Assembly (NCBI RefSeq): GCF_041260155.1
Contig: NC_091930.1
Coordinates: 23,615,737-23,679,736, forward strand
Direction: 5' to 3'
From: Ptychodera flava
Lineage: Eukaryota; Hemichordata; Enteropneusta; Ptychoderidae
Length of the DNA stretch: 64,000 nt
Each line of letters opens with the position of its first letter. Positions within the stretch are counted from its first letter, which is position 1. The notes beneath the pieces are model-generated. The model was given only the letters and a program-made list of their open reading frames with translations, was not told where the DNA came from and did no database searches. Shown here one piece after another: positions 619 through 30,794 of this stretch. The translations under genes and the position numbers were made by a program.

Positions 619-718
619 CTTCTCATCATTGGCCATTTTCTGTAGAATCGCCGTCAGTTCGGAAAAGGTGGGTCTTTTCTCCGGATTTTTGTCCCAACAA
701 CTCAGGATTGTAGAATAA
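619..718 (-). CDS. RTK exon 13: kinase C-lobe end
   Basis: It encodes [18 protein letters not shown], the CW-x6-RPTF signature that closes tyrosine kinase domains, then [15 protein letters not shown]. The donor AAG|GTAAGA ends in phase 0, so at least one more exon is expected. A tiny candidate at about 434-423 (AG acceptor, then three codons and a stop) is too weak to annotate. Confidence 0.9.
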
Positions 719-30100: not shown

Positions 30101-30794
30101 GCATAACCTTTAAAAAATCGGTTTTCCCTATGTTTTGTCTCAATACTCCAAAATATCTTACTCAAACTTGCTGGAATGCAAGCTGTCACAATGCTCTTCC
30201 AAAGTTTGTCTCAGATTTTTTATATCTTGCTTTGTTTTTTGGAGCACAATTTTAAAGAAATCAACTAGGATTAAATTTACTGCCCTGGAAGTTTTTCCGG
30301 CATAAAAACTGTTAAGAAGGTTTAAAAAATTCTGAGACACACTTTTAAAGACCCTTAGGACAGCTTGCACTCACATAAATTTCAGCCGCATATCTTAAAG
30401 CATTGAAACAAAACATAGGGAAAACCGATTTTTGAAAGGTTATGCAAATTACCTGTCACGTGATAGTTATGTAAACAGTGGTGACACTATGGTAACCAGA
30501 ATGTTCCCCTATATCTAAACTTTCCGAAAATATACAATTTACAGGGTTCTGAGCTTCTTAAACACTACAGAATTGTTAGTTTAAAATGGTCAATTTCTTG
30601 TCTTGGAACCTTAACACTACGCTTTCTTCCAAACAATGTCATAATTCCATATCCCACTTTTTCAGGATAAATCAAAAGGTGATATAACGTATGCAGACCT
30701 GGATTTGCCACCCACTGGTTCTGAGCAGCAGCCAAAGAGGATGCCTGCAGAAGAGATGATTCAATATGCCTCAATCCAGATTCCGGAAAAGTAA
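9098..30794 (+). CDS. Ig-domain inhibitory-type receptor with ITIM tail (10 exons, 686 aa)
   Basis: Ten exons join with consistent phases to an uninterrupted 2061-base frame. They encode a signal peptide (1-18), four Ig domains (about 19-403), a transmembrane helix (about 409-432) and a 250-residue cytoplasmic tail. The tail holds ITIM-type SSYEHV (Y478), five Y-A/S-x-S repeats (Y505 onward), YQSP, and terminal ITIMs ITYADL (Y653) and IQYASI (Y678). From memory, ITYADL and a C-terminal YAS(I/V)Q(I/V)P resemble vertebrate SIRP-alpha (CD172a), which recruits SHP-1/SHP-2. Expected at the plasma membrane as an inhibitory or docking receptor; the ligand is unknown. The ectodomain is paralogous to the divergent RTK. 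The tail exons are duplicated downstream, so an alternative 3' end is possible. A polyadenylation signal AATAAA lies at 30907-30912. The gene model comes from splice signals without transcript support. Confidence 0.85.
9150..10029 (+). other. start of receptor intron 1
   Basis: No exon was recognised. A local palindrome lies at 9926-9973 (AGACGTATATCA with its inverse, around AGGACATAAATTTGTCCT). Confidence 0.5.
10030..11175. mobile_element. degenerate foldback element in intron 1
   Basis: The left arm (CCAGTGTTCACTGCCTCATT, 10162 on; CTAAGGTCCACTTTCGG; CTGATTGGTT) is matched in inverse order on the right (11088-11175), one mismatch over the 32-base core. The arms are about 900 bases apart. 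No coding remnant was seen between them. Confidence 0.6.
11330..11558 (-). mobile_element. probable LTR of a Ty3/gypsy retrotransposon
   Basis: On the minus strand a polypurine tract (AAGGAGGGTGGCA) is followed by TGTTACATGG, a typical 3' LTR start. AATAAAG and a GC-richer stretch follow. The far end near 11330 is approximate because no second LTR was found. Confidence 0.5.
12134..12580 (-). mobile_element. 3' fragment of a non-LTR retrotransposon nested in the gypsy remnant
   Basis: It encodes the end of a LINE reverse-transcriptase ORF (RSGRLRPPVARTQRYANSFI then PQAVSLFN), followed by a short 3' UTR and a (TTATC)n tail at 12134-12168. The microsatellite tail is typical of CR1/L2-like elements. 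It interrupts the RNase H frame of the host element. Confidence 0.75.
12697..12861. repeat. single arm of the foldback family seen at 20841-21163
   Basis: It shares ACCGGGG, GTCGCCCGTTTATTCAGTAT and AAAATGGCCGACTTTGTCCC with the right arm of that palindrome. Confidence 0.65.
13291..14540. other. intron 1 stretch without recognised gene
   Basis: The stretch is AT-rich with no supported frame. A 15-base inverted pair GTAATCACCACACTT at 14305 and 14371 is the only structure noted. Confidence 0.5.
14567..14598. repeat. GC-rich hairpin
   Basis: Perfect 12-base arms GCCGTACGGAAC and GTTCCGTACGGC enclose an 8-base loop. Confidence 0.7.
14640..14960. mobile_element. foldback element, family member 1
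   Basis: The right half is a palindrome: GGTTATTACGAAAATACC with CAAAGGATGCACTCGGACAT inverted at 14915-14955 around a GC-rich centre. The left part shares order and sequence with 24660-24980, defining a repeated family. Confidence 0.65.
15205..16216 (+). pseudogene. LINE reverse transcriptase fragment
   Basis: It contains RT motif A (YLDYSKAFDKIDHT), motif B (AGVPQGTKLGPILFVLMVND) and a motif C variant (FMDDTT), then the LINE C-terminal region (LIRSCLEFSCIVWEGW). The frame is broken at least twice (TGA near 15350; shift near 15620-15790). It is 5'-truncated. The family is CR1/jockey-like by pattern. Confidence 0.85.
16671..17550 (-). pseudogene. second LINE reverse transcriptase fragment with (TTA)n tail
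   Basis: On the minus strand KLLGVTIQSDLSW is followed by a frameshift, then RPFLPTSARRQFYNCFILPY and FDYCLSIWGCCSQKD. These are typical of the region after the RT domain in CR1/L2-like LINEs. It ends in a (TTA)n tail at about 16671-16702. Confidence 0.8.
17574..17630. repeat. hairpin with 23-base arms
   Basis: TAGACGTGGTGGCTGTGACCAAT and its inverse differ by one transition and are separated by about 9 bases. It lies at the 5' side of the minus-strand LINE fragment. Confidence 0.75.
17640..19210. other. end of receptor intron 1
   Basis: No gene was recognised. A direct repeat of about 45 bases lies at 17755-17843 (GGTTCCACACATGTCAC twice) and a hairpin at about 18045-18095. Confidence 0.5.
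19211..19501 (+). CDS. ITIM receptor exon 2: Ig domain 1
   Basis: An intact 291-base phase 1-1 exon encoding FNCTYN, VWYRGNSLV and [13 protein letters not shown]. It keeps the tryptophan lost from the RTK copy. Nucleotide identity with 7626-7915 is very high, so the two exons diverged recently or exchange sequence by gene conversion. The acceptor is ATGCAG and the donor ATAG|GTGAAT. Confidence 0.9.
20054..21513. mobile_element. 1.46-kb terminal-inverted-repeat element flanked by TTA
   Basis: Ends GGAAGCCGTCATTATTTACG and the inverse of AATAATGAAGGCTCCC match over about 33-36 bases with a few mismatches. TTA lies immediately outside both ends (20051-20053, 21514-21516), a target duplication that fits PIF/Harbinger. 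No transposase frame was seen. A second palindrome is nested inside. Confidence 0.65.
20841..21163. mobile_element. nested foldback element
   Basis: Arms of about 140 bases (GGCAAAGTCGACCATTTTCA on the left; the inverse of AAAATGGCCGACTTTGTCCC on the right) meet near 20995. It shares sequence with 12697-12861. Confidence 0.75.
21520..22496. other. receptor intron 2 remainder
   Basis: No exon or recognisable element was found. A tRNA-like B box near 22365 was considered and not called. Confidence 0.5.
22497..22778 (+). CDS. ITIM receptor exon 3: Ig domain 2
   Basis: A 282-base phase 1-1 exon with cysteines in VLTCTIN and FHCQLQH and the tryptophan in DLVWFKDGEEV. It is the clear counterpart of RTK Ig2 (HYTLPPWKWSE). 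The acceptor is TATTTCAG and the donor CAAT|GTAAAT. Confidence 0.9.
22779..23478. other. receptor intron 3
   Basis: Nothing was recognised apart from splice signals at both ends. Confidence 0.5.
23479..23760 (+). CDS. ITIM receptor exon 4: Ig domain 3
   Basis: A 282-base phase 1-1 exon: ITIDCTALDGNPGPHNMTL, then SGVYKCEANTKFHDGSE. No tryptophan is in the C strand, as in RTK Ig4. Sequons NMT and NTT are visible. The acceptor is TTTTCAG and the donor TACT|GTGAGT. Confidence 0.9.
24030..24332 (+). CDS. ITIM receptor exon 5: Ig domain 4
   Basis: A 303-base phase 1-1 exon encoding an I-set-like Ig domain: DLVCTVDGFPTPIVIWFDN and YYGIYTCEASNRIPP. This domain has no obvious counterpart in the RTK at this position, so the two ectodomains differ in domain composition. 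The acceptor is TTAACAG and the donor CCAG|GTACAT. Confidence 0.9.
24660..24980. mobile_element. foldback element, family member 2 (diverged)
   Basis: It shares with 14640-14960 the order ACGAGTGCC, ACGCGTCC, GTTGACA, TCGATGCCCC, the palindrome arm AAATGATGCACTCG and GATATTTTCGTAATAA. It lies in intron 5 of the ITIM receptor. Confidence 0.55.
25245..25370 (+). CDS. ITIM receptor exon 6: transmembrane helix
   Basis: It encodes GGPGSN, then an unbroken run of I/V/L/T residues (NIIVIVVTVSLGSVVIII and onward) ending at the basic YRCERSSEKR stop-transfer. There is no charged residue inside the helix, so association with an ITAM adaptor through a membrane lysine is not suggested. The acceptor is CATAG and the donor TCAG|GTAGAT. 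Confidence 0.9.
25571..26045. mobile_element. foldback element in intron 6 with about 150-base arms
   Basis: The left arm 25571-25732 (CAGTGGCCACTTGACTGTTG, GGGTTGTAAATGAGAG, CGATTGGCACCC) is matched in inverse on the right (25894-26045), with about 160 bases of loop. It ends 77 bases before the microexon. Confidence 0.75.
26123..26138 (+). CDS. ITIM receptor exon 7: 16-nt microexon
   Basis: Flanked by CCACCAG and AG|GTAAGA, these 16 bases add GNTTE and shift the phase from 1 to 2, exactly what the next exon needs. Without it the frame from exon 6 to exon 8 fails. That phase requirement is the main support. Confidence 0.7.
26287..26399 (+). CDS. ITIM receptor exon 8: proximal tail, first ITIM
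   Basis: A 113-base exon, phase 2 to 1, encoding a Ser/Ala/Glu-rich tail segment with SSYEHVINRYQSA. SSYEHV fits the ITIM consensus (S/I/V/L)xYxx(I/V/L). The acceptor is TTTTCCAG and the donor GCAG|GTAAGC. Confidence 0.82.
26727..26819. repeat. (ATATC)n microsatellite 1
   Basis: About 18 near-perfect copies. The long open frame ISYHI is repeat artefact. A degenerate stretch of the same motif lies at 27363-27450. Confidence 0.97.
27909..28180. mobile_element. 272-bp MITE with 21-base perfect ends
   Basis: GGCTGCATTCACAAACACCTC at the left is exactly inverted at the right (28159-28179). Looser pairing continues inward (GAGGGGCGA). No clear target duplication was seen. Confidence 0.7.
28181..28894. 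other. intron 8 stretch before the duplicated unit
   Basis: No gene was recognised. A GC-richer patch at 28660-28800 has no supported frame. Confidence 0.45.
29090..29176. repeat. (ATATC)n microsatellite 2 (copy A)
   Basis: It sits about 90 bases before tail exon 9. Its counterpart in copy B is one unit longer. Confidence 0.97.
29269..29735 (+). CDS. ITIM receptor exon 9 (copy A): repeated tyrosine-motif tail
   Basis: A 467-base exon coding 155 residues. Its tail alternates lysine-rich blocks with tyrosine motifs: VYAISSKQK, TYAVSAKQK, LYAVSSKHK, TYSVSAKQK, LYAESSKKK, plus NPYQSPE with a YxxP Crk-type motif. Two larger repeats (about 65 residues each) can be seen from the recurring PEATY and AALYA blocks. 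The Y-A-x-S core misses the ITIM +3 hydrophobic position, so its SH2 partner is unclear. It starts in phase 1 and ends in phase 0 (AAG|GTGATA). The 5' side is an (ATATC)n array that stays open in frame, which is not coding evidence. Confidence 0.85.
29931..30614. mobile_element. 684-bp foldback element with TTAA ends (copy A)
   Basis: Almost the whole length is an inverted repeat. The left end TTAAGGTTCCAAGACAAGAA mirrors the right end TTCTTGTCTTGGAACCTTAA, and arms of about 300 bases continue inward (CACGTGACAGGTAATTTGC and its complement). A TTAA at each border fits a piggyBac-type target duplication. It lies in the intron between tail exons 9 and 10. Confidence 0.8.
30666..30794 (+). CDS. 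ITIM receptor terminal exon (copy A): two ITIMs and stop
   Basis: 43 codons including TAA. The exon encodes DITYADLDLPP, a Gln/Pro/Lys linker, then EEMIQYASIQIPEK and the stop. ITYADL and IQYASI are canonical ITIMs spaced 25 residues apart, as in SHP-binding receptors where two phosphotyrosines engage the tandem SH2 domains. The acceptor is TTTTTCAG in phase 0. Confidence 0.88.
   Translation, partial: DKSKGDITYADLDLPPTGSEQQPKRMPAEEMIQYASIQIPEK

Follow-up and report, generated by a model that had tools for sequence, protein, structure and literature searches.

A head-to-head pair of immunoglobulin-type receptor genes in Ptychodera flava, one with a predicted pseudokinase and one without a kinase

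Introduction

Receptors with related immunoglobulin (Ig) ectodomains, with and without a tyrosine kinase, are known from the FGFR and FGFRL1 pair (PMC2754479; PMC4134281), where FGFRL1 is described as a decoy bearing YXX-Phi motifs and binding a phosphatase (PMC4134281). Receptor tyrosine kinases (RTKs) can also belong to the pseudokinase class, as in HER3, where the catalytic Asp is changed to Asn and ATP binding and a weak in vitro activity persist (PMC4718504). In the species-specific KIN-16 family of Caenorhabditis elegans, a pseudokinase member partners an active kinase in immune defence, the loss of the catalytic Asp and of the glycine-rich loop (G-loop) in FLOR-1 being accompanied by a role alongside a receptor kinase that is active (PMC10523662). 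Here, we describe a stretch of 64,000 nucleotides (the window) from the hemichordate Ptychodera flava (GCF_041260155.1, contig NC_091930.1, positions 23,615,737 to 23,679,736 of the forward strand), holding two neighbouring head-to-head Ig-receptor genes, gene A on the minus and gene B on the plus strand. The two belong to one receptor cluster, gene A being of the kinase type and gene B having no kinase, and the most interesting part is the recent re-copying of the first Ig exon (Ig1).

Among sponges, the RTK of Geodia has kinase-less Ig adhesion relatives. An Ig-like domain is described for the Geodia RTK itself (PMC12018476). Regarding paired receptors, the ligand-binding exon of Siglec-11 and Siglec-16 is kept alike by gene conversion, and one of the partners has a nonfunctional allele in the population (PMC5701461). 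Clustered Ig receptors of invertebrates, such as the Botryllus fester co-receptors and the Hydractinia Alr proteins, are described with tails bearing a canonical immunoreceptor tyrosine-based inhibitory motif (ITIM) or a hemi-activation motif (hemITAM), and without a kinase (PMC12065747).

Organization of the locus and kinship of the ectodomains

Both gene models were built from one genomic sequence, on DNA alone (Table 1). The in-frame splice of gene A (571-7915, minus strand) gives Ig2-Ig3-Ig4, a transmembrane (TM) segment and a tyrosine kinase, and that of gene B (19211-29756, plus strand) gives Ig1-Ig2-Ig3-Ig4, a TM segment and a tyrosine-rich tail, with 11 kb between the oppositely oriented Ig1 exons. 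The 11 exons of gene A that begin with Ig2 and run through the stop codon (7211 to 571) have AG/GT borders and agreeing phases and are free of premature stops and frameshifts; in gene B, the four Ig exons, the TM exon and the tail exon are all phase-compatible. These in-frame models on opposite strands confirm the head-to-head pair proposed by the first-pass annotation. When the kinase of gene A was compared with the whole window (tblastn, E up to 0.01), the matches were confined to gene A itself and gene C, a third copy located at 58-63.5 kb, so gene B has no kinase in the window.

Comparing the ectodomains, Ig1 is 85% identical in DNA and Ig2 49% identical in protein between the two genes, and Ig4 of gene A matches Ig3 of gene B, which supports a common descent of the ectodomains in these three domains. 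Ig3 of gene A and Ig4 of gene B are without a clear counterpart, and Ig3/Ig4 are not colinear. The related Ig1 and Ig2 exons announced earlier are seen at the identities given here, but the Ig1 exon of gene A is frameshifted and not readable.

The synonymous divergence (dS) has reached saturation in Ig2, whereas Ig1 has a dS of 0.29 (Fisher p 6e-13), and the ratio of nonsynonymous to synonymous divergence (dN/dS) of Ig1 is 0.45, with a wide interval of 0.22-0.94. The view that the high Ig1 similarity is on its own a sign of constraint by a shared ligand was rejected, and recency is the simpler account, because the synonymous sites of Ig1, unlike those of Ig2, and its adjoining intron (76% alike between the genes) are also similar. 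The pattern thus supports a recent re-copying of Ig1 between genes A and B. In addition, neither ectodomain is FGFR-like by sequence: FGFR chains make up 0 of the 52 solved chains matching gene A without Ig1 (E up to 1) and none of the best 60 of 77 matching gene B (E up to 0.001), which include VEGFR2 and MuSK chains.

The Ig1 exon of gene A carries a 1-nt deletion (one G) at the conserved Ig tryptophan, with stops in frame downstream, and this is the sole indel between the two Ig1 exons. An error of assembly, a null allele or incipient decay could each account for it. With a gene B-type acceptor, the exon is in phase 1 at each end, therefore its skipping would keep the rest of gene A in frame; the entry of Ig2 and the exit of the candidate signal-peptide exon are also in phase 1. 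That candidate exon is suggestive only, given the control rate of the scan, which returned 4 hits over the 60 kb made up by the two strands of 30-60 kb. Upstream of gene B, the scan gave one hit, 5.5 kb from Ig1, which was not used in view of the same rate.

The kinase domain of gene A

The kinase of gene A is recognized by PF07714 (E 8.4e-89, residues 367-638). The best 60 of 2437 matching solved chains belong to FGFR1-4 and RET, apart from a single EGFR chain; the latter scores highest only because two of its stretches match, at about 142 bits each. Of the single-kinase chains, FGFR1 comes first with 260 bits, followed by RET with 256 bits. By these matches, the domain is placed closest to the FPVR subgroup of RTKs (FGFR, PDGFR, VEGFR, Kit, RET and kin). 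A conserved Asn in the hinge region is reported for this subgroup (PMC8662651), and it is present in gene A, where EGGNL aligns with SKGNL of FGFR1, according to our own mapping of that residue.

Compared with FGFR1, the β3 Lys, the αC Glu, the catalytic-loop Asn and DFG are retained, while HRD is replaced by HRN and two glycines of the G-loop are lost, so that neither the HRD Asp nor the GxGxxG pattern expected of an active kinase is present. Gene A is then predicted to encode a pseudokinase receptor, with the domain kept and the catalytic motifs lost. The tyrosine kinase body reported before is thus present as a domain, but its competence is put in doubt by HRN and the two missing glycines.

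In the juxtamembrane exon (3677-3893, minus strand), YTSI and YMKL with a gap of 9 resemble an immunoreceptor tyrosine-based activation motif, weakly (shuffle P 0.067). Two matches to the ITIM consensus in the cytoplasmic part of gene A are at chance level (shuffle P 0.21).

Gene C is a decayed kinase copy in which the frame of K3 is broken. As it retains the catalytic Asp (HMD), the HRN change probably arose on the line of gene A itself.

The cytoplasmic tail of gene B

The tail exon of gene B contains the motifs AVYAIS, ATYAVS, ALYAVS, ATYSVS and ALYAES. None of them fits the ITIM consensus used here, [SIVL]xYxx[ILV], or the further patterns TxYxx[VI] and YxxL/I, and their general form, [AV]xY[AS]xS, falls outside the ITIM, immunoreceptor tyrosine-based switch motif (ITSM) and YxxL/I patterns. 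The second copy of the exon keeps all five motifs, likewise with 0 ITIM matches, and YxxL/I is absent from the cytoplasmic part formed by the TM and tail exons. Internal duplication accounts for part of the repeats (189-nt units, 75% identical), and how many there are is thus no independent sign that selection has acted.

An ITIM-consensus match, SSYEHV, is found in a possible exon between the TM and tail exons. This exon is open, with an entry phase of 2 where the TM exon demands phase 1, and the search for an exon linking the two gave 0 candidates. Its likeness to the juxtamembrane exon of gene A is not significant (shuffle P 0.31), and Pfam recognized 0 families at E up to 1 in either this exon or the tail exon. 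The ITIM tail formerly attributed to gene B is not supported, as there are 0 consensus matches in either tail-exon copy and the SSYEHV exon does not fit in phase.

A tandem duplication of 8.5 kb (28894-37453 and 37449-45983, 95% identical) holds one tail exon in each copy, and internal repeated units within each copy are about 77-83% alike. Long (ATATC)n arrays occur near the cytoplasmic exons of gene B (26727-26817 and 29091-29181), and the same kind of frame as in these arrays also precedes the second tail copy, from 37563. An imperfect palindrome (29931-30614, arms about 79% alike) directly follows the first tail exon, with an inverted match in the second copy too.

Other features of the window

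Between genes A and B lies transposon debris, with RNase H-like and reverse-transcriptase pieces at 11873-12376 (minus strand) and 15283-15618 (plus strand). A Pfam match to reverse transcriptase or RNase H was obtained for 2 of the 10 open reading frames tested. At 52000-56000, adjoining 2 kb stretches have strong and opposite AT skews (0.230 and -0.164), with opposite Lys-rich and Phe-rich frames.

Table 1. Coordinates of the modelled exons and copies within the window.
Feature	Position	Strand	Remark
Gene A candidate signal-peptide exon	8242..8302	-	Phase-1 donor; sole scan hit in 7950-14000 of the minus strand
Gene A Ig1 exon, frameshifted	7626..7915	-	Acceptor picked by analogy with gene B
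Gene A Ig2 exon	6915..7211	-	Related to gene B Ig2
Gene A Ig3 exon	6458..6721	-	Without clear counterpart in gene B
Gene A Ig4 exon	4994..5275	-	Counterpart of gene B Ig3
Gene A TM exon	4675..4820	-	
Gene A kinase exon K1	3677..3893	-	Juxtamembrane; degenerate G-loop; lysine retained
Gene A kinase exon K2	3416..3526	-	αC Glu retained
Gene A kinase exon K3	2591..2784	-	Hinge; short kinase insert
Gene A kinase exon K4	2046..2168	-	VHRNLAARN, HRN in place of HRD; DFG retained
Gene A kinase exon K5	1341..1452	-	
Gene A kinase exon K6	1044..1140	-	
Gene A last kinase exon K7	571..718	-	Stop included
Gene B Ig1 exon, intact	19211..19501	+	
Gene B Ig2 exon	22497..22778	+	
Gene B Ig3 exon	23479..23760	+	Counterpart of gene A Ig4
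Gene B Ig4 exon	24030..24332	+	Without clear counterpart in gene A
Gene B TM exon	25245..25370	+	Exit phase 1
Possible cytoplasmic exon with SSYEHV	26287..26399	+	ITIM-consensus match, shuffle P 0.03
Gene B tail exon	29269..29756	+	Five [AV]xY[AS]xS repeats; Lys-rich; stop; phase fits TM exon
Second tail-exon copy	37828..38315	+	Within 8.5 kb tandem duplication
Gene C, decayed kinase copy K3-K7	58236..63521	-	Window ends before further exons
Gene C K3	63343-63521	-	Frameshifts; 12 gap positions, frame broken
Gene C K4	59421-59543	-	HMD (catalytic Asp retained); NFR in DFG region
Gene C K5	59089-59197	-	Donor GC
Gene C K6	58645-58741	-	
Gene C K7	58236-58347	-	

Interpretation and alternative explanations

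The explanation to which we give an even chance is a turning-over cluster of Ig receptors, with one pseudokinase RTK (gene A) and one kinase-less relative (gene B). Two linked genes in opposite orientation would have come from one ancestor that already had Ig1, Ig2 and another of the Ig domains now shared. Gene A would have retained an FGFR/RET-like tyrosine kinase domain and then lost the catalytic base and two G-loop glycines, and gene B, without a kinase, would end in a tail of tyrosine/lysine repeats that does not qualify as an ITIM tail by consensus, with Ig1 being re-copied between them recently. Under the likeliest mechanism, and if transcribed as modelled, gene B may use its outer Ig domains to recognize a ligand or partner, and gene A might do likewise, possibly with the same ligand, with an intact Ig1 in another allele or without Ig1. 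Gene A could then signal by scaffolding or by partnering an active kinase, like HER3 and FLOR-1, and gene B could be phosphorylated by another kinase and dock SH2 proteins, or act as a kinase-less competitor.

Several points weigh against this explanation. Gene A as drawn has no Ig1 to offer if the deletion is genuine and not confined to a null allele, and some phases depend on the choice of acceptor, as an alternative AG 8 nt earlier at Ig1 gives a different entry phase. A dead kinase is a prediction, since pseudokinases of the HER3 type can keep weak activity. The tail exon is assigned to gene B on phase alone; its internal repeats have a dN/dS of 0.81, implying little constraint, and no constraint is visible between its two copies, which differ by 10 nonsynonymous (379 sites) and 2 synonymous (104 sites) changes, near the neutral expectation. 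Moreover, a single DNA sequence, of one individual and one species, underlies the whole explanation.

The frameshifted Ig1 and the HRN change of gene A, together with the decayed neighbour gene C, the large duplications and the reverse-transcriptase or RNase H matches, would also suit a birth-and-death array in which gene A is a recent pseudogene, less decayed than gene C, and only gene B is live. This is somewhat unlikely, as the other 11 exons of gene A keep their splice sites and phases without stops or frameshifts, and the frameshift is the sole indel in an Ig1 comparison whose dN/dS is below one, within its wide interval. Besides, dN/dS between genes A and C is 0.21 (0.12-0.35; 144 codons of K4-K7), an average over two branches, one of them ending in a pseudogene, which also weakens its weight for the favoured explanation; it indicates that, along one branch at least, the kinase spent much of this period under purifying selection.

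A paired-receptor system beyond the vertebrates would combine an Ig-type RTK pseudokinase with a kinase-less receptor bearing [AV]xY[AS]xS repeats, Ig1 being kept alike by gene conversion and the duplicating tail exons forming a possible switchable cassette; we consider it quite unlikely. That gene B is a kinase-less competitor of active relatives of gene A, as FGFRL1 is to FGFRs, affecting ligand supply or trafficking through its tyrosine motifs, is decidedly doubtful. The related Ig ectodomains with and without a kinase, known from FGFR and FGFRL1 (PMC2754479; PMC4134281), and the lack of kinase sequence near gene B would agree with it, but gene A, the kinase gene linked to it, is predicted to encode a pseudokinase, the solved-chain comparisons of both ectodomains lack FGFRs in the scopes given above, and the TM-plus-tail cytoplasmic part is devoid of YxxL/I. 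Highly improbable are true paired receptors of the vertebrate type, in which the RTK would activate and an ITIM receptor inhibit on reading the same ligand. Linked genes with related ectodomains and a recently re-copied Ig1 recall Siglec-11 and Siglec-16, and SSYEHV could serve as the inhibitory motif if an unfound exon linked it in phase; however, both tail-exon copies are devoid of ITIMs, the ITIM matches of gene A do not exceed chance, its kinase motifs are lost and its Ig1 is frameshifted.

Genes A and B are a curious cluster of receptors rather than an established paired-receptor system. The first-pass annotation is partly supported, as the gene pair is real and unusual, but its functional labels fail on the predicted pseudokinase, the lack of an ITIM in the tail exon and the Ig1 of gene A, unreadable as it stands. 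Should the two genes be expressed and bind a common ligand, they would show that matched ectodomains came to be joined to different signalling tails with an RTK as one partner, and that the re-copying of one ligand-reading exon keeps such pairs alike beyond those already described. With gene A simply in decay, the locus would represent ordinary receptor birth and death.

Comparison with described systems

Regarding the kinase, gene A resembles HER3/ErbB3 in having Asn for the catalytic Asp within a recognizable RTK kinase, where Lys, Asn and the DFG Asp are kept. They differ in the Ig ectodomain and the FGFR/RET-like kinase of gene A, and in their losses: HER3 is without the αC Glu, whereas gene A keeps it and has lost two G-loop glycines. 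The KIN-16 family (OLD-1, FLOR-1) is also similar in having a pseudokinase member within an RTK family; the likeness of gene A lies in its motif losses, whereas the immune role and the active partner are features of the C. elegans system.

The recently re-copied Ig1 beside a saturated Ig2 is a gene-conversion-like pattern, as in Siglec-11 and Siglec-16, but the tail exon of gene B has no ITIM and gene A is a predicted pseudokinase of RTK type. Like the Botryllus and Hydractinia receptors, Ig receptors with tyrosine-motif tails occur here in a gene cluster; however, the tail exon of gene B has neither the ITIM nor the hemITAM described for them.

Among the systems compared, FGFR and FGFRL1 (nou-darake) seem to be the nearest described arrangement. 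The claim that no such system had been described is therefore qualified by this kinase and kinase-less pair, and it stands insofar as the ectodomains here are not FGFR-like; no pairing of an RTK with an ITIM receptor over a common type of ectodomain was named in the literature search results examined, which is no proof of absence. The present pair differs from FGFR and FGFRL1 in the gene A ectodomain (no FGFR among 52 chains matching it without Ig1), in the predicted pseudokinase nature of its kinase member, in the head-to-head Ig1 exons 11 kb apart and in the tail motifs. It is alike in joining related Ig ectodomains to kinase and kinase-less receptors, and FGFR1 is the top single-kinase chain for the gene A kinase.

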